Shown: positions 1,413 to 26,533 of the stretch, piece by piece | Numbering within the stretch: position 1 is the first letter of the stretch | How the letters are laid out: each line of letters starts with the position of its first letter | From: an uncultured Bacilli bacterium | GTDB taxonomy: Bacteria > Bacillota_I > Bacilli_A > RF39 > UBA660 | Direction of reading: 5' to 3' | DNA length: 29,964 nt | Assembly: GCA_947629115.1 (NCBI GenBank) | Contig: CANRCL010000003.1 | Span: forward strand, 1 to 29,964 | Translations under genes and position numbers: made by a program | The notes under the pieces: generated by a model | Seen by the model: the letters and a program-made list of their open reading frames with translations, nothing else | Databases searched by the model: none | What the model was told of the DNA's origin: nothing

Positions 1413-1445
1413 GAAAAACCAACATCCCTAATTACTTGGTTTTTC
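1413..1445 (-). terminator. intrinsic terminator of the repeat-protein gene
   Basis: Inverted repeat GAAAAACCAA (1445-1436 on the - strand) and TTGGTTTTTC (1422-1413) with a 13-nt loop that contains the TAG stop codon at 1428-1430. A T-rich stretch follows. The stem overlaps the last codons of the gene. Confidence 0.7.
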
Positions 1446-4400
1446 TCTTTTTAATTTATAACTAGACTCTATTTCTGTATTTAACTCATCTATTAAAGAA
1501 GTTAATAACTCACTATTATAAGTTTCATATTTTACCTTTAGAGAAGTAATTTCTTCTAAAGAAACTTTAGCAAATTCCGCTACTTGTTGAGGTAAATAAC
1601 CATTAGATAAAAGATAAATAATAATTATTTCTTTTAAAGACATAGCATCTAATAAACTTTGATAGTTAGAATTCTTAAGATTTATAATGGCTTTAGTTAT
1701 TTCTTCAATTAATTGACTTTCATTTTCCTTAATATTTAACTTTTTAATTTTATTTTTAATTCTTTGTAAGGTATTAGAATATAAACGAGATTCTTGAATA
1801 TTACTAAATTTATAATGTCTTTGATAATTATCATAATTTTCGCCAAATTTCTTTTGCAAAATATCTTTTTGTTTTGAAGATAAATTATCTAATATTGGTC
1901 TTAAAACTTCTTCACTAGTATCAAGATATTCATAAATTGTTTTATTTGGTTTAATTACATTATTTTTAATGGACCTACAAATATGAAAAAATGTACTTTG
2001 TTCTTGTTTACTAGACCAATTATAACGTTCATGATATTTGTTGTAATCTTTGCCGAATTTCTTTTGTAAAATTTCTTGTTCTTTTGGTGATAAATCTTCT
2101 AGAATTGGTTTTAGTACTTCCTCACTAGTTTCAAAATATTCATAAATGTTTCCTATTAATTTAGAATTGTTTTTTAATTTTCTGGTGATATTTAAACAAA
2201 GAAGTTGATATAATTTTTTATCTTCTTCATTTTCCCAAACGACAAATTTTTGATAATTGTCATAATTTTGGCTAAATTTCTTTTGTAAAAGGGCTTGTTC
2301 TTGAGGAGATAATCTGTCTAATATTGGGTTTAGTACTTCTTCACTAGTCTTAAAATATTCATAAATTGTTTTATTTTGTTTATTTATTTTATTTTTAACA
2401 ATTTTAGAAATATTAAGATATAAATTTCTTTCTTGTTTACTAGACCATTCACATCGTTCGTGATAATTGTTGTAATCTTTGCCGAATTTCTTTTGTAAAA
2501 CTGCTTGTTCTTGTGGTGATAAATTTGCAAGTATAGGGTCTAGAATTTCTTTACTAGTTTCAAAATATTCATAAATGTTTCCTACTAATTTAGAATTATT
2601 TTTTATTTTTCTTAAAATACTTAAACGAGTAAGATGATATAATCTTTTATCTTCTTCATTTTTCCAAACAACAAATTTATTATAAGTATTATAATGTTGA
2701 CCAAATTTTATTTTTAAAACTTTTTTTTCTTTATTAGATAATCTATCTAATATTGGTTTTAAAATTTCTTCACTGGTTTCAAAATAATCATAAATGGTTC
2801 CAGTTTCTTTAACATAATTTTCTATTCTTTTTTTAATTAAAACACAAGTATTATAAAACAAATTTTGTTCTTGTTTATTGGCTAATTTATTACGTTTTTG
2901 ATAATTGGTATAATTTTCACCAAACTTCTTTTTTAAAATTTCTTTTTGTTTAATAGATAAATTTGCGAGTATTGGGTCTAGAATTTCCCTACTTGTTTCA
3001 AAATATTCATAAATAGTTATAATTTCTTCGTCAAAATTTTCTATTCTCTTTTTAATTAAAGCACAAATATTGTAAAACTTTCTTTGCTCTTGTTTATTAT
3101 CCCAAAAATGCCGTTCTTGATAATTGTCATAGTTTTCACCAAATTTCTTTTGTAAAACCTCTTTTTCTTGGGGTAATAAATTATCTAGTATAGGGTCTAA
3201 AATTTCCCTATTTGTTTTAAAATATTCATAGATAGTTTTAACTTCTTTATCATAATTTTCTATTTTCTTTTTAATAAATGTGCAAGTATTCCGAAATAAA
3301 TGTAATTCTTTTGGACTATCCCAAAAATGCCGTTCTTGATAATTGTCATAGTTTTCACCAAACTTCTTTTGTAAAACGGCGATTTTTTCTTTAGATAAAT
3401 TAATTAAAATAGCATTTAAAACTTCTTCACTAGTGCCAAAATAATCGTAAATAGTTTCAATTTTAGAAGTATTCTTTACCTCTTCTTTTTCTTCTTTTGA
3501 AATTACAACATTTATTTTTAAAGTACCTTTGGTTAATAATTCATAAGCATTAATAATATTAATTTGTTCCGCTAAATCTAAATTAACATTAGGAATATAC
3601 CGATAACTAAAATTATTCCATTGTTTAAATAACGAAGAGCGTAAATCTTCTGGTACTTTAACAATATTTTGGCGAAATTCTTCTTCACTGATTTCTAAAT
3701 AGTCATAAATTGTTACCACCGAAACTAAAGTACCTAACTTTTGCATTATTTTGTTATATTCTTCTAAATAACTAGAATTAGTAATAACTTTTTTATTATA
3801 AGGACTTTTTAAATCAGACCCAAATACTGCTTTTAGAATAATTAATTCTGCTTCATTAAGTTTTTTAGTAGCGCATTTACAAATACTAAAAGGAACATTT
3901 AAAATTTTGTCAATGGTTTTAGGTTTTTCTTCTTTAGCATTTAATTTTTTATTTAAGGCTTCTTTTAACATATTAAGAGATAACAAGCATAATTTTTCTT
4001 GACTGATACTGCTCCAAGTAGGAGAAGATGTAAATGTATCATAGCCTCTTCCAAATTGAACTTGTAAAGCCATTTGATTTTCTAAAGGTAATTCTTTTAT
4101 TAAAGGATAAATTATATCTTTTCCTAAATAATCATAAATACTACCAGCCATTTTAATACCTAAAAGTCTATTCAACTCTTCTAAAGGTATTTTCATTTGT
4201 AAAGCAATTTCTTCATTAGTTGGAACTCTATTTAATTTAAATGTTAATAAATTTTTCGTCTCGTCATATTTTTGTTTAATACTAGGAGTAGATTTAGTTT
4301 TCTTTTGACTTTCTTTCTTTTCTTTATAGAAATCTAATACTTTTTCCATTAATTCTCGAGAATTTAAATTAGGAGAATAATTTTCTAAAAATTGGGGTAA

Positions 4401-5099
4401 TATTTTTAAAATATCTAAACTACTAAAATAATTCTTTAAAATATCTAAAATTATTCCTAAATCTTTTGTATTAATCTTATAAGTTTCCATTATATTTTGT
4501 AAATCATCGGAATTATTTTGACATAAAATTTTAAATATATTACTTTGAGGATTTAACTCAAAATCTAGATTATTAACATTGGCATAGGCTAAAAATAAAT
4601 ATTGCATACATAAATTAGCACTAAGGCTTTTTAAATTACCACATTTAAAATAACTATTACATAAATATATTTTTAAATTATCATTTAAATAGGTACTTTT
4701 GGCTAATATTTCTTGCCATTCTGACACACTTGGAAAATACTTTTCAGACTCTAAAAATGACTCTAATCTTTTAATATTTCTTTTCACTATTTGTAAAATT
4801 AGTCTGTTTTCAAATTCATTATCAATATAGTTAGTTATTCTTAAAATAGTATTGGCTTTTTTGTCCTCAATTGATTTAGTAATATCATTTTTAATCATTT
4901 TTATAAAAATATTTTCAAAATCATTTAAGACTTCTTCTGTCGGACTCGCTTTTAATTCATTAAGACAATTACTAACAATATCCACAAATTCACTTTTAGT
5001 TAAACTATCTTTACATTCATCTCTTATTTGTAAAATAAGTAATTTTAAAGTAGCATTTAAACTACTATAATTTAATTTATTAAGCATTTTTATAGTCAT
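1428..5099 (-). CDS. large repeat protein with sigma-70 region 3/4-like modules, 1223 aa
   Basis: Residues 1-265 are an alpha-helical N-terminal region without a recognised domain. Residues about 275-315 (FKLNRVPTNEEIALQMKIPL and the following helix) resemble sigma-70 region 3 (GREPTxEEIAxxM). From about 320 two degenerate modules (SIYDYLGKD near 320, TIYDYLEIS near 463), and from 550 to about 1122 eight close copies of a 69-74-residue module, follow in tandem. Each reads roughly IYEYFxTSEEVLxPIL, LSPQEQxxLQKKFGENYDNY, a Trp/Phe-containing linker, then a basic helix ending IKxKI. The LSPxExxxLxxKFG core is like sigma region 4.1. The C-terminus (SNGYLPQQVAEFAKVSLEEI, near 1165-1184) looks like a helix-turn-helix. 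No membrane segment. The ATG has a GGGAGG site. A DNA- or RNA-polymerase-binding role is inference only. Confidence 0.85.
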   Translation of the reverse strand: MTIKMLNKLNYSSLNATLKLLILQIRDECKDSLTKSEFVDIVSNCLNELKASPTEEVLNDFENIFIKMIKNDITKSIEDKKANTILRITNYIDNEFENRLILQIVKRNIKRLESFLESEKYFPSVSEWQEILAKSTYLNDNLKIYLCNSYFKCGNLKSLSANLCMQYLFLAYANVNNLDFELNPQSNIFKILCQNNSDDLQNIMETYKINTKDLGIILDILKNYFSSLDILKILPQFLENYSPNLNSRELMEKVLDFYKEKKESQKKTKSTPSIKQKYDETKNLLTFKLNRVPTNEEIALQMKIPLEELNRLLGIKMAGSIYDYLGKDIIYPLIKELPLENQMALQVQFGRGYDTFTSSPTWSSISQEKLCLLSLNMLKEALNKKLNAKEEKPKTIDKILNVPFSICKCATKKLNEAELIILKAVFGSDLKSPYNKKVITNSSYLEEYNKIMQKLGTLVSVVTIYDYLEISEEEFRQNIVKVPEDLRSSLFKQWNNFSYRYIPNVNLDLAEQINIINAYELLTKGTLKINVVISKEEKEEVKNTSKIETIYDYFGTSEEVLNAILINLSKEKIAVLQKKFGENYDNYQERHFWDSPKELHLFRNTCTFIKKKIENYDKEVKTIYEYFKTNREILDPILDNLLPQEKEVLQKKFGENYDNYQERHFWDNKQEQRKFYNICALIKKRIENFDEEIITIYEYFETSREILDPILANLSIKQKEILKKKFGENYTNYQKRNKLANKQEQNLFYNTCVLIKKRIENYVKETGTIYDYFETSEEILKPILDRLSNKEKKVLKIKFGQHYNTYNKFVVWKNEEDKRLYHLTRLSILRKIKNNSKLVGNIYEYFETSKEILDPILANLSPQEQAVLQKKFGKDYNNYHERCEWSSKQERNLYLNISKIVKNKINKQNKTIYEYFKTSEEVLNPILDRLSPQEQALLQKKFSQNYDNYQKFVVWENEEDKKLYQLLCLNITRKLKNNSKLIGNIYEYFETSEEVLKPILEDLSPKEQEILQKKFGKDYNKYHERYNWSSKQEQSTFFHICRSIKNNVIKPNKTIYEYLDTSEEVLRPILDNLSSKQKDILQKKFGENYDNYQRHYKFSNIQESRLYSNTLQRIKNKIKKLNIKENESQLIEEITKAIINLKNSNYQSLLDAMSLKEIIIIYLLSNGYLPQQVAEFAKVSLEEITSLKVKYETYNSELLTSLIDELNTEIESSYKLKREKPSN
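1734..3452 (-). repeat. eight tandem coding repeats of about 207-222 bp
   Basis: This is the DNA behind residues about 550-1122 of the large repeat protein. Units start at the codons for (T)IYEYF or (T)IYDYF, near residues 550, 623, 695, 769, 842, 911, 984 and 1054. Some blocks are nearly identical at base level, for example the TTGATAATTGTCATAGTTTT stretch (+ strand sense) near 3117 and 3337. Unit identity this high suggests recent duplication or gene conversion, so unit number may vary between strains and may collapse in short-read assemblies. Confidence 0.9.
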
Positions 5100-16686: not shown

Positions 16687-16721
16687 AATTATTTATTGGT
16701 GTTAATTTCACCCAAAACCCA

Positions 16722-16750
16722 TCGCCCGGGCGACTCCGCCCCCAGGGCGA
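16722..16750 (-). other. GC-rich hairpin/cruciform just past the variable end of gene A
   Basis: Outer arms TCGCCC/GGGCGA (16722-16727 with 16745-16750) and inner arms GGGCG/CGCCC (16728-16732 with 16737-16741) stack into an 11-bp stem with a 3-base bulge and a tetraloop that reads GAGT on the coding strand. It starts 16 nt after the TAG of gene A. It is a poor terminator because no T-run follows. In known DGRs (Bordetella phage BPP-1) a GC hairpin with a GRNA-type tetraloop just downstream of the variable repeat is needed for target recognition; GAGT differs from GRNA in the last base. Gene B has no such hairpin. Confidence 0.7.
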
Positions 16751-16766
16751 ATTTATACCGCCGTCC

Positions 16767-16955
16767 CTAAAATATCGTGTAAGGTGTATTTAGTGTTCCC
16801 TCGCCAGATAATGATACATCGGACGATAGATAGAATACTGGACGGACCGCACCCGTATACGTCAGAGCGCTGATGTTCACGCAGCCATCGGAAAGGTATA
16901 CTGCTAGGCTTTCATATCCATGGCTAGAAACATAACCACTCTTGCTATAGAAGTA
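16767..16955 (-). other. putative DGR variable region of gene A
   Basis: Codons 470-531. This block is far more GC-rich than the rest of the window. Aligned with gene B from the C-terminus, GGC, GTG, CTG, ACG, GCG, CGT and CCA codons are unchanged. The codons between them differ, mostly as NNC or NNT (A/B: TGC/TAC, AAC/TAC, ATC/TAC, AGC/GGC, GCT/GAC, GGT/AGT), as expected if a template had AAC/AAT there. In the constant tail the four differences up to GGA/GGG (GTC/GTG, GTA/GTC, CTA/CTG, GGA/GGG) could all come from a template A. A few C/T changes after that do not need this explanation. Confidence 0.6.
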
Positions 16956-18362
16956 GCCATAACGTGAAATCAGAAATTCCGAATAATAATTTGAATTATC
17001 ATTTTTGCTAAAATATATCCAAGCATTTTTGGCTGTTGTATAATTTCCGGGTTCACCTCCTGGATATGCATATATATAATCATGAATGTATTGTAATCCA
17101 ATGTAAGCACTTACTTTTTTACTCCAAGTATATGGTTGCTCTGTATAATTATAATTATTTTCATTTTTTACTCGGTGAGTCGTTGGCTCGCCACCAGTTT
17201 CTATTGCGTACACTTTGTTTCCATTATACATATCGGCTGAGTCATATTCTAAATTTGTATCTCCATACATCCAGTCTTTTTTCACAATATATGGTTTTAA
17301 TTGCTCACTTAATTTACTATAAAATGATGTACTATCATATGTATGTGAACCATATTCACTTTCCGCATAATCATTTAATTGATGGAATAAATCACTATCC
17401 GGCCATTCTATATCTATATCATCTGTATGCCATTTACTTGTTAATGCAGTTTTCTTTATTACTTTGATTTCTCCATCGTCGGTTATTCCTATTATACGAT
17501 ATAAATCTTTACCATTTTCACTACATTCACTACCTAAACAGATGTAATTATTTACATCTCCTGTTCCTTGATAACGATGCATTCCCCCTACTGAAGTGTC
17601 GGTTAAAATATCAGTTTTATCATTTTCTTCGGCTATATCTGCATTTGTTTTATTTCTAACACTACATACTAAATTTTCATTTGTTATATTTATATCTATA
17701 TCTTTTCCTGCTAATGCTGTTTGGTCATCTTTTGTATTTTTTAATTCTATCGCTGCTGTTATATTTACACTACTATCTCCTACTATAGTATAGTTCACTG
17801 TTGTTTTATAACCTTTATTTGATTTAGTTTCACTTATTATGGTTGCTAAATCTATTTCATTGGGATTAATTGTTGCTTTATTTCCAGTCTTATCACTTTG
17901 ATAACCTAAATAGACTCTTCCATCTCCCTCGGTTATTATATCTTCTTCTAGTGGTTCTTCTTCTCCACTTTTCTTCACACTTGCTGTTATTGTTAAATCA
18001 CTGGTACAATTTAAATAGGCTTCTTCTTCAGTATCACTTCCACTTATTCCAGCCGTTGATACTATATGGTCTGTTCTTTCTGGTTCAAATCTATTTACTT
18101 TTTCTGCTGTTGCCCAATAACTTGTTCCTATTTTTCCTTGGGACATATCGGTCACTAATAAATCTAGATATAATTCACTTTCACCAGTTATTGTTGGTGT
18201 TCCATATTTAGCAAGTTCGTCTGTTTCTCCAGTAAAGTTTGTTTCTGTTTTTCCTCCACTATTATTTGTTATTGAAAAATATGCAAAGGCTGACCCTATT
18301 ACCAATAACATTAATGTGGCTAAACCTATCATTGTTAAGACTATTGTCTTTTTCTTTTCCAT
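16767..18362 (-). CDS. surface protein A: SipW/TasA-like signal, lectin-like variable C-terminus
   Basis: 531 aa. Residues 1-31 (MEKKKTIVLTMIGLATLMLL, then VIGSAFAYFS) form a signal/anchor resembling SipW-dependent TasA/camelysin signals. A beta-rich Thr/Ser/Asn segment follows to about 240. From about 260 comes a second domain (MHRYQGTGDVNNYICLGSEC, DLYRIIGITDDGEIKVIKK) ending in LISRYG, a variable stretch and AVRPVFYLSSDVSLSGEGTL. This end pattern recalls FGE/C-type-lectin-fold or DUF6273-like domains, some of which are DGR targets. It is a close paralog of gene B, with about 200 bp of near-identical upstream DNA and a poly-G promoter. I infer an exported, host- or phage-facing display protein; the ligand is unknown. 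Confidence 0.8.
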   Translation of the reverse strand: MEKKKTIVLTMIGLATLMLLVIGSAFAYFSITNNSGGKTETNFTGETDELAKYGTPTITGESELYLDLLVTDMSQGKIGTSYWATAEKVNRFEPERTDHIVSTAGISGSDTEEEAYLNCTSDLTITASVKKSGEEEPLEEDIITEGDGRVYLGYQSDKTGNKATINPNEIDLATIISETKSNKGYKTTVNYTIVGDSSVNITAAIELKNTKDDQTALAGKDIDINITNENLVCSVRNKTNADIAEENDKTDILTDTSVGGMHRYQGTGDVNNYICLGSECSENGKDLYRIIGITDDGEIKVIKKTALTSKWHTDDIDIEWPDSDLFHQLNDYAESEYGSHTYDSTSFYSKLSEQLKPYIVKKDWMYGDTNLEYDSADMYNGNKVYAIETGGEPTTHRVKNENNYNYTEQPYTWSKKVSAYIGLQYIHDYIYAYPGGEPGNYTTAKNAWIYFSKNDNSNYYSEFLISRYGYFYSKSGYVSSHGYESLAVYLSDGCVNISALTYTGAVRPVFYLSSDVSLSGEGTLNTPYTIF

Positions 18363-18505: not shown

Positions 18506-18533
18506 ATTATAAAATCCCCCCCCCGAAAATCAA
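18506..18533 (-). promoter_or_regulatory. poly-G slippage promoter of gene A
   Basis: On the - strand, -35 TTGATT (18533-18528), then TTC, nine G, ATTT, then a perfect -10 TATAAT (18511-18506): a 16-bp spacer. A homopolymer inside the spacer makes promoter strength depend on tract length; 9 or 10 G gives 16 or 17 bp, close to the optimum. The same boxes precede gene B with seven G and a 14-bp spacer. The start codon is about 145 nt downstream. Confidence 0.7.
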
Positions 18534-24786: not shown

Positions 24787-24951
24787 CTAAAATATTGTGT
24801 AAGGTACATCTAATGTCCCCTCGCCAGATAATGATACATCGGACGACAGATAGAAGACTGGACGCACCGCACTCGTAGCATCCAGGTCGCCGTAGTACAC
24901 GTAGCCGCTTGAATGCACAAACCACGCATTATAAGCCCCGTACGAACCGCA
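24787..24951 (-). other. putative DGR variable region of gene B
   Basis: Codons 472-525, locally GC-rich like its counterpart in gene A. The segment between SRYG and AVRPVF (CGSYGAYN, then AWFVHSSGYVYYGDLDATS) has unchanged GGC, GTG, CTG and ACG codons separated by substituted NNC/NNT codons. It is eight codons shorter than in gene A near its upstream end, which simple template copying would not explain. Homology with gene A stops at the TAG stop codon, and no GC hairpin follows. Confidence 0.5.
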
Positions 24952-26364
24952 ACCATAACGCGATATTAACCATTCATAAGATTTTGAACTATCATTTTTG
25001 TTTATATAAATCCAAGCATTTTTAGCGGTTGTATAATTTCCCGGATTTCCATTTGGATATGCATATATATAATCGTGAATGTATTGTAATCCTATATAGG
25101 CGTTTACTGTTTTACTCCAAGTATATGGTTGCTCTGTACAACTATTATTTTCATTTTTTTCACAGTGGGTTGTTGGCTCTCCACCAGTTTCTATTGCGTA
25201 CATTTTATTTCCGTTATACATATCGGCTGAACTATCTGATAAGTCAGTATCTCCATACATCCAATCTTTTTTAACAATATATGGTTTTAATTGCTCGCTT
25301 AATTTACTATAAAATGATGTATCATTGTATGTTTCACTTCCATAATCACTACCAGCATAATCATTTAATTGATGGAATAAATCACTATCTGGCCATTCTG
25401 TATCTGTACTATATGTTGTATGCCATTTCATTGTGCCTGTTAATGCTATTTTTTTAATTACTTTGATTTCTCCATCGTCTGTTATTCCGATTATTCTATA
25501 TAAGTCATTTCCATTTGTACCACAGTCGTCACCTAGACAAATATAATTATTTACATCTCCAGTTCCTTGATAACGATGCATTCCTCCTACCGAAGTGTCT
25601 GTTAAAACATTATCTTTATCATTTGCTTCGGCTATTTCTTTATTAGTAAGTTTTGTTCCTACACTGCATACTAAATTTTCATTAGTTATATTAATATCTA
25701 TATCTTTTCCTGCCAATGCTGTTTGGTCGTCTTTTGTGTTCTTTAATTCTATCGCTGCTGTTATATTTACATTACTATCTCCTACTATGGTATAGTTTAT
25801 TGTTGTTTTATAACCATCATTATTTTTTGTTTCACTTATTATGTGTGCTAAATCTATTTCATTTGGGTCTATACTTGCTTTATTACTTGCTTTATCACTT
25901 TGATACCCTAGATATACTCTTCCATCTCCCTCGGTTATTATATCTTCTTCTAATGACTCTTCTTCTCCACTTTTCTTAACACTCGCTGTTATGGTTAAAT
26001 CACTTGTACAATTTAAATATGCTTCTTCTTCAGTTGTGCTTCCACTTATTCCTGCTGTTGATACTATATGGTCTTTTCTATCTGGTTCAAATCTATTTTC
26101 TTTTGTATCTGTTGCCCAATAACTGGTTCCTATTTTTCCTTGAGCCATATCACTAACTAATAAATCAAGATATAAATTACTTTCTCCAGTTATTGTTGGT
26201 GTTCCATATTTTGCTAGTTGGTCTGTTTCTCCAGTAAAATTTGTTTCTGTTTTTCCTCCACTATTATTTGTTATTGAAAAATAAGCAAAGGCTGAACCTA
26301 TTACCAATAACATTAATGTGGCTAAACCTATCATTGTTAGTACAATTGTCTTTTTCTTTTCCAT
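24787..26364 (-). CDS. surface protein B: paralog of A with SipW/TasA-like signal
   Basis: 525 aa with the same order as gene A: an identical first 48 residues, including the signal/anchor MEKKKTIVLTMIGLATLMLL, then the beta-rich Thr/Asn domain, the MHRYQGTGDVNNYICLGDDC domain and a lectin-like end AVRPVFYLSSDVSLSGEGTL. Most differences from A in the body are scattered substitutions; the 3' end differs in a clustered way. It has extra Cys (THCEKNENNSCTEQ, RYGCGSYG) that A lacks, so disulfides may differ. The AGGAG ribosome site is better than in A, but its poly-G promoter has a 14-bp spacer and is probably weak in this sequence. Probably a reserve or alternate copy of the same display protein. 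Confidence 0.8.
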   Translation of the reverse strand: MEKKKTIVLTMIGLATLMLLVIGSAFAYFSITNNSGGKTETNFTGETDQLAKYGTPTITGESNLYLDLLVSDMAQGKIGTSYWATDTKENRFEPDRKDHIVSTAGISGSTTEEEAYLNCTSDLTITASVKKSGEEESLEEDIITEGDGRVYLGYQSDKASNKASIDPNEIDLAHIISETKNNDGYKTTINYTIVGDSNVNITAAIELKNTKDDQTALAGKDIDINITNENLVCSVGTKLTNKEIAEANDKDNVLTDTSVGGMHRYQGTGDVNNYICLGDDCGTNGNDLYRIIGITDDGEIKVIKKIALTGTMKWHTTYSTDTEWPDSDLFHQLNDYAGSDYGSETYNDTSFYSKLSEQLKPYIVKKDWMYGDTDLSDSSADMYNGNKMYAIETGGEPTTHCEKNENNSCTEQPYTWSKTVNAYIGLQYIHDYIYAYPNGNPGNYTTAKNAWIYINKNDSSKSYEWLISRYGCGSYGAYNAWFVHSSGYVYYGDLDATSAVRPVFYLSSDVSLSGEGTLDVPYTIF

Positions 26365-26507: not shown

Positions 26508-26533
26508 ATTATAAAATCCCCCCCGAAAATCAA
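26508..26533 (-). promoter_or_regulatory. poly-G slippage promoter of gene B
   Basis: -35 TTGATT (26533-26528) and -10 TATAAT (26513-26508) as in gene A, but only seven G, giving a 14-bp spacer. Standard spacing is 16-18 bp, so this copy is predicted weak or off, and gain of two or three G would switch it on. Confidence 0.65.

Follow-up and report, generated by a model that had tools for sequence, protein, structure and literature searches.

Is the hypervariable 3′ end of a surface-protein gene in an uncultured Bacilli bacterium the work of a diversity-generating retroelement (DGR), and, if so, from where would it be served? The question is posed by a stretch of 29,964 nucleotides (contig CANRCL010000003.1, positions 1 to 29,964; hereafter the window) carrying two paralogous genes, A and B, which are 82% identical and have the same orientation, with 6.4 kb between them. 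An original prediction, made from the letters of the window, had proposed that the C-terminus of A, and perhaps that of B, is a DGR target served in trans, C-type-lectin folds being frequent targets of DGRs. A DGR-type variable region in a putative C-type-lectin-like domain, presumably served in trans, is well supported for B and for the protein family, while the substitution spectrum makes a weaker case for gene A. The best explanation, in which we have good confidence, is that A and B belong to a lectin-like family diversified in trans by a DGR, that A is probably a former home target of such an element, and that both genes probably have phase-variable poly-G promoters. The genes and their variable regions (VRs) are the following; TR stands for template repeat and ORF for open reading frame.

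16767..18362, minus strand: gene A, 531 aa, surface protein of the DGR-target family (ORF; homologs hypervariable at the same place)
24787..26364, minus strand: gene B, 525 aa, paralog of A (ORF; 82% identity to A)
16838..16967, minus strand: likely VR of gene A, 130 bp, GC 0.49 (boundaries placed as in the TR/VR pairs of related genomes)
24858..24963, minus strand: VR of gene B, 106 bp, GC 0.57 (mismatch bias at adenine against the TR of genome G408)

In the alignment of the two genes, differences are sparse up to TCRCGTTATGG, the sequences then diverge up to CGTCCAG, where the VR of A ends, and they agree again after it (positions 16767-16837 of A form a constant tail). At the protein level, identity collapses between SRYG and VRPVFYL. 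GC content, 0.31 upstream and 0.37-0.39 downstream, is 0.492 (A) and 0.566 (B) inside the VRs, values attained by 0.5% and 0.01%, respectively, of all stretches of that length in the window; most relatives show the same jump. The alignment and the GC jump thus confirm the predicted GC-rich, clustered divergence at the 3′ end of gene A. The codon pairs listed in the prediction for the 23 codons that end in CGT-CCA, and the unchanged GGC, GTG, CTG, ACG and GCG among them, had also been read correctly. Missing from that list are ACG/GAT and the seven codons that precede GGC. Each of the seven differs between A and B (CTA/GCG, GCA/TGG, GTA/TTT, TAC/GTG, CTT/CAT, TCC/TCA and GAT/AGC), and not all of them are compatible with NNC or NNT. 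Four differences in the adjoining constant segment had further been taken to fit a template adenine. Three of them (GTA/GTC, CTA/CTG and GGA/GGG) lie outside the VR, beyond the end of TR-VR homology in related cassettes; at the fourth, GTC/GTG, which lies inside, a template adenine is possible and not the rule, the base in 48 related TR candidates found with a simple motif being T in 36, G in 7, A in 4 and C in 1. In the constant part of the genes (184 differences in 1389 positions), adenine was the least changed base (0.10-0.11 of adenine positions).

The VRs were next compared with TRs, all of them heterologous and from other species. Against the G408 TR, the VR of B has mismatches at 26/40 adenines, 7/21 cytosines, 4/26 guanines and 2/19 thymines, i.e., 26/40 at A versus 13/66 at non-A positions (Fisher p = 3.5e-6); this TR was picked from 37 and ranks second in total mismatches, and the p value is uncorrected for that choice. 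With the eight best-matching TRs, p ranged from 0.039 (for the TR with the fewest mismatches) to 6e-6, and over all 37 the median mismatch was 0.67 at A and 0.37 elsewhere. A DGR-type VR in B is near certain. The corresponding figures for gene A show no clear bias: the median mismatch of its whole VR with 30 TRs was 0.68 at A and 0.61 elsewhere (best p shown, 0.037), and that of its last 72 nt with 37 TRs was 0.68 and 0.48 (best p shown, 0.068). The VR of A is also 24 nt longer than that of B. The adenine-specific signature, as judged from alignments with TRs of other species, is thus shown for B only. Gene A makes the weaker DGR target by its substitution spectrum, yet it carries a DGR-type hairpin (see below), and a DGR-type VR in A is likely.

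A protein search returned 37 matches, including A and B, of which P0003 and P0004 are the closest homologs; 34/37 have at their end a variable stretch followed by (R/Y/Q)PxF, the exceptions being P0005, P0030 and P0037. Of 486 stretches matched in species genomes, 400 encode relatives, and the best 80 (77 loci) were used. The source records of these loci name an uncultured Bacilli bacterium, isolate Lapin, in 77/77 cases; since the French word lapin means rabbit, a rabbit-gut source is suggested. The genus was defined through RelA, which was matched in 38/38 species, the nearest being G001 and G002 at 89%; 13/38 species came via the Lapin records. Family matches, which are stretches and not genes, are present in 38/38 genomes, from 4 to at least 56 in each, the figures for the largest genomes being lower bounds. 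The family alignment produced 31 pattern matches in viral contigs, none of them a relative. Both A and B open with a hydrophobic N-terminal segment.

18276..18344, minus strand: N-terminal hydrophobic segment of A, putative membrane anchor or signal (from the translation)
24790..25659, minus strand: putative C-type-lectin-like domain at the C-terminus of B (residues 236-525), with the VR inside

The profile of the lectin-like domain found no match among PDB sequences. Judged by their sequences, A and B would be members of a large, membrane-anchored, C-type-lectin-like family whose C-terminal ~35-45 codons are DGR VRs.

Complete DGR cassettes occur next to family members in relatives. In loci L054 and L060 the order is target gene, GC-rich hairpin, TR, MutS_I-like ORF, Avd, reverse transcriptase (RT) and an ORF of ~97 aa; a third cassette, L052, has no TR. 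All 22 of 22 mismatches between the adjacent target and the TR of L054, and 15 of 15 in L060, fall at adenines. The MutS_I accessory corresponds to PF01624, Avd matched bAvd (E = 8e-8) and NF033474 (E = 4e-10), in each case below the curated cut-off, and the RT carries IGNMTSQ and YxDD. It is the (I/V/L)GxxxSQ motif that marks DGR RTs according to PMC3521204; the QGxxxSP motif given in the original prediction was wrong, for it marks RTs of the retroviral and group II type. RVT_1 was found in 11/15 genomes first searched, and several IGNMTSQ RTs share contigs with family members. A DGR RT is matched at E < 1e-100 in 16/38 genomes (22/38 at E 1e-3); IGNMTSQ is present in 16/16 of these strong-RT genomes (in G003 on one of two pieces), as are Avd and the trailers of TR RNAs described below, and the RT frame is broken or shortened in G007, G003, G409 and G414. 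Avd is present in 18/38 genomes. G227 has trailers, and no match to RT or Avd was found in it.

Other RTs were encountered in these genomes. Those of G001 and G002 with QGSPTS are retron-like and were rejected as DGR RTs; retron_St85_RT is the NCBIfam model that they match best (E = 2e-65 and 1e-64), with scores slightly short of its cut-off. Similar-length RTs with YSDDMTFS in G004, G007 and G013 were set aside as non-DGR. Stand-alone YSDDMTFS RTs of 319-350 aa, unrelated to the DGR, occur in 5/15 genomes first searched (G001, G002, G004, G007 and G013; loci L081, L082, L083, L085 and L086). A second type of SQ-motif RT, 346-384 aa long, was seen in L096 (G013), L097 (G010) and L090 (G004), with PIGNYTSQ, PIGNFTSQ and PIGNLTSQ. 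The ~97-aa ORF that follows the DGR RT (L054:3998-4288, L060:6984-7307 and L052:12023-12310) had no Pfam or NCBIfam match in the copies of L054 and L060.

The largest set of VRs came from G005, a 1.1-Mb genome, in which 20 stretches around family matches, together with six earlier loci, gave 43 distinct VRs by motif (others may be missed). Aligned to one TR, they have mismatches at 910/1589 A, 313/1031 C, 274/1115 G and 225/1072 T positions. Per VR, the non-A mismatch ranges from 0/75 to 39/75, with six VRs at 7 or fewer. VR GC content declines with non-A mismatch (Spearman -0.49, p = 8e-4, 43 VRs), the mean being 0.55 in the 9 VRs with at most 10 non-A mismatches versus 0.47 in the 22 VRs with at least 20, with overlapping ranges. 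This gradient may reflect the time since the last retrohoming.

Taken with the established DGR mechanism, the anatomy of the relatives suggests how the family would be diversified. The RT, with Avd and the MutS_I-like accessory, would copy an intergenic TR RNA, errors at template adenines would become random bases, and the cDNA would replace the VR of adjacent or remote targets. The window was searched for a TR and an RT, and neither was found in its 29,964 nt; because of this, A and B would be, or would have been, served in trans. Retrohoming in the organism of the window, and binding of a ligand by the diversified domain, would likewise be expected.

A more specific trace of a cassette lies behind gene A.

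16719..16752, minus strand: GC-rich hairpin of the DGR-target type downstream of gene A (covariance model R2, 22.4 bits, E = 4e-4)

The R2 model was built from 8 cassette-adjacent hairpins, A being left out, and 7/13 of its pairs are changed on both sides. Its second match in the window is partial, overlaps 16719-16752 and has E = 0.28; after gene B, R2 found no GC-rich hairpin, and an AT-rich, terminator-like hairpin is all that is present there. Among 47 target genes (35 loci), the stop codon is followed by a hairpin of less than -15 kcal/mol in 3, and these are exactly the cassette-adjacent ones. Over 126 loci (1.19 Mb), R2 marked 10 places, all after target genes: 7 have a TR behind the hairpin, L052 has none, L051 has only a truncated MutS_I ORF and L020 a truncated TR. 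The hairpin occurs in 14/38 genomes, 13 with a DGR RT, the other being G006; 7 of the 14 had supplied the sequences of R2. It was not found in three RT-bearing genomes. The homology of A to the cassettes stops at the hairpin, and no TR lies behind it. Since the hairpin is present with no TR or RT behind, and since in relatives such hairpins follow the targets of intact or decayed cassettes, gene A was likely once the home target of a cassette that has since been lost.

The loss may have been complete. An ancestral DGR would then have made the VRs, the lineage would have lost RT and TR, and the segments would now evolve normally as frozen relics. In the closest relatives, G001 and G002, no DGR RT, Avd, TR RNA or hairpin was found, which is in line with such a loss, as are the hairpin of A with no TR behind it, the lack of a clear A bias in the VR of A and the decayed cassettes in L051 and L020. 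Leftover targets are also described for Treponema denticola isolates without the core DGR (PMC4891356); the window is alike in having an adenine-biased VR, that of B, with no core DGR found, and unlike in that here the hairpin suggests which target adjoined the cassette. However, VR GC content in G005 falls as non-A drift accumulates, and the 0.57 of B groups with the fresher VRs; moreover, the bins of metagenome-assembled genomes may be incomplete, and the DGR RT is retained in 13/14 hairpin genomes. We consider relics possible but less likely and prefer a DGR acting in trans.

Candidate TR RNAs are dispersed in genomes of the genus. A pattern describing TRs matched 15/38 genomes (0 for the reversed control), with no match in G001 and G002, and 58 distinct leader-plus-trailer candidates were collected, 46 of them with TATAAT no more than 25 nt before the start of the leader. 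In 45 candidates the leader is able to pair with the trailer as GGTAATCTT/AGATTATC, and pairing is kept through two-sided changes in four (GGTAGTTTT/AAACTATC in 2, GGCAGTCTT/AGGCTGTC in 2); there are six one-sided changes of the G-U type, one broken pair and two leaders with no trailer match. Since independent events are few, leader-trailer pairing is likely and not proven. A trailer model, built from 24 of the TR-RNA loci, found 13 copies in G403, 11 in G419, 10 in G227, 7 in G415 and 6 each in G379 and G411; all but G227 have one strong RT match each. Four trailers share one contig in G403 (C6) and four in G312 (C21), so that mixing of strains within bins cannot by itself explain the multiple copies. 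The TR RNAs may be transcribed and used. That each TR has its own target is not shown: of 11 VRs found by motif in six multi-TR genomes, 3 fit the adjacent TR best (L289 and L301 ungapped, L296 with a 6-nt gap), 3 fit a TR elsewhere better (L283, L304 and L285) and 5 fit none well. ORFs of 274-314 aa with similar C-terminal ends adjoin TR RNAs in L199, L204, L213, L216 and L220.

The promoters of A and B have an unusual anatomy.

18528..18533, minus strand: -35 element TTGATT of gene A
18516..18524, minus strand: poly-G run (9 G) within the 16-nt spacer that separates the -35 and -10 elements of gene A
18506..18511, minus strand: -10 element TATAAT of gene A
26528..26533, minus strand: -35 element TTGATT of gene B
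26518..26524, minus strand: poly-G run (7 G) within the 14-nt spacer that separates the -35 and -10 elements of gene B
26508..26513, minus strand: -10 element TATAAT of gene B

The G9 of A and the G7 of B, at the same place upstream, are the only two G/C runs of at least 6 in the window, and the order in both promoters is TTGATT, TTC, G run, ATTT, TATAAT. An earlier count, of any G/C run within 350 bp and with a narrower family definition, gave 46/82 family ORFs versus 28/633 others. In the later one, with a wider family definition, G runs and boxes required and background matches inspected, TTGA, G7-9 and a TATAAT-like box preceded 61/105 family ORFs versus 6/610 other ORFs (at least 200 codons). 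These six have hydrophobic N-termini by eye, and at least one is family-like by its N-terminus. The 61 spacers measure 16 nt (46), 15 nt (13), 14 nt (1, gene B) or 17 nt (1), and the tract has 8 G in 46/61. The pattern is present in 26/38 genomes, with up to 39 sites (G413) and 0/38 for the reversed control; it was not found in G403, G419 and G227, the genomes richest in TR RNAs. Two non-family surface proteins, in L014 (486-aa ORF) and L065 (497-aa ORF), have the same poly-G promoter and end in GFRLVLAP and SFRIALAL, ends that we take to resemble another kind of DGR variable protein. Many poly-G promoters of G379 lie at contig ends. The data suggest that the repeated promoter and N-terminal regions break assemblies and that the family counts are lower bounds.

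By this anatomy, A and B likely have phase-variable promoters: the poly-G run would slip, the spacing would change, and the expression of each copy would vary by phase. The spacer of A has the commonest family value, and that of B is predicted to be weak. Alternatively, the run could be a fixed regulatory or structural site and not a switch, and the predominance of one tract length and one spacer length (46/61 each) is in line with this. We find it unlikely, since in G005 the number of G varies between copies whose flanks are identical (nine in 5, eight in 4) and A and B differ by two G between identical boxes, a variation between paralogs, not cells.

Two explanations of the variable segment need no RT. 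Gene conversion or recombination among paralogs could shuffle it, and the 4 to at least 56 family matches per genome, as well as the longer VR of A with its poor fit to all compared TRs, would accommodate this; yet conversion does not predict that in a cassette 0/75 non-A sites are changed versus 15/37 A sites, nor the similar bias of B, which makes it very improbable. Ordinary positive selection on a ligand-binding loop with no dedicated machinery, although the segment lies within the putative lectin-like domain, is hardly credible given the base-specific spectrum, the GC jump and the TR/VR pairs of congeners.

Beyond gene A lies an ftsW/rodA gene and beyond gene B an rnfD-like gene. Elsewhere in the window (1428-5099), a 1223-aa protein with apparently repeated units (by eye) has several weak matches to sigma-70 region 4.

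The system described here is like the BPP-1-type DGRs in the A-specific change from TR to VR, in Avd and in the putatively C-type-lectin-like target (all from the relatives' cassettes and the family), in the GC-rich hairpin downstream of the VR, reported in PMC3240598, and in the SQ-motif RT of the genus (PMC3521204). It is unlike them in that the window yielded no RT or TR, in the hairpin-VR distance of ~85 bp at A versus the 4-34 bp given for phage DGRs in PMC3240598, and in that, within the genus, 43 VRs go with one TR in one genome, and as many as 13 TR RNAs with a single RT in another. Remote targets in trans would be shared with Thiohalocapsa PB-PSB1, for which PMC10907252 reports 9 DGR loci and 15 targets, and with the remote variable proteins of cyanobacteria (PMC7517822); here, by contrast, the target family is another one, 43 VRs occupy one 1.1-Mb genome and many promoters carry poly-G. 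Both multiple TRs and numerous VRs have been reported for DGRs (PMC6642488). A poly-G tract between -35 and -10 with spacing near 17 nt is known from Neisseria meningitidis porA, where, according to PMC7864442, shortening of the 17-nt spacing abolishes transcription; here, unlike porA, the arrangement is common to dozens of DGR-target-family genes per genome, and switching is predicted from sequence. Among the top-ranked results of literature searches, whose scope excluded bioRxiv and most subscription papers, none joined DGR targets with poly-G promoters and none concerned such dispersed TR-RNA genes.

The finding matters in several ways. The hairpin, as the mark of a lost cassette, offers a way of tracing DGR loss, and the TR-RNA genes with their shared scaffold lend themselves to studying which features of its template RNA a DGR RT requires. 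For the genus as a whole, we tentatively propose, as a plausible reading, that a combinatorial repertoire is kept in genomes of ~1 Mb: dozens of poly-G-switched lectins would be re-randomized by a shared DGR, with one RT and dispersed, interchangeable TR-RNA guides, each with its own -10 box and paired leader and trailer. Genomes such as G379, with 6 TR RNAs and 26 poly-G promoters, and G413, with 4 and 39, have the full combination, whereas poly-G promoters seem to have been lost from the species that have 10-13 TR RNAs. Neither DGR targets nor phase-variable promoters are new by themselves; both on one large family in a small genome would, if it works, amount to a bacterial repertoire of switchable, hypermutating receptors.
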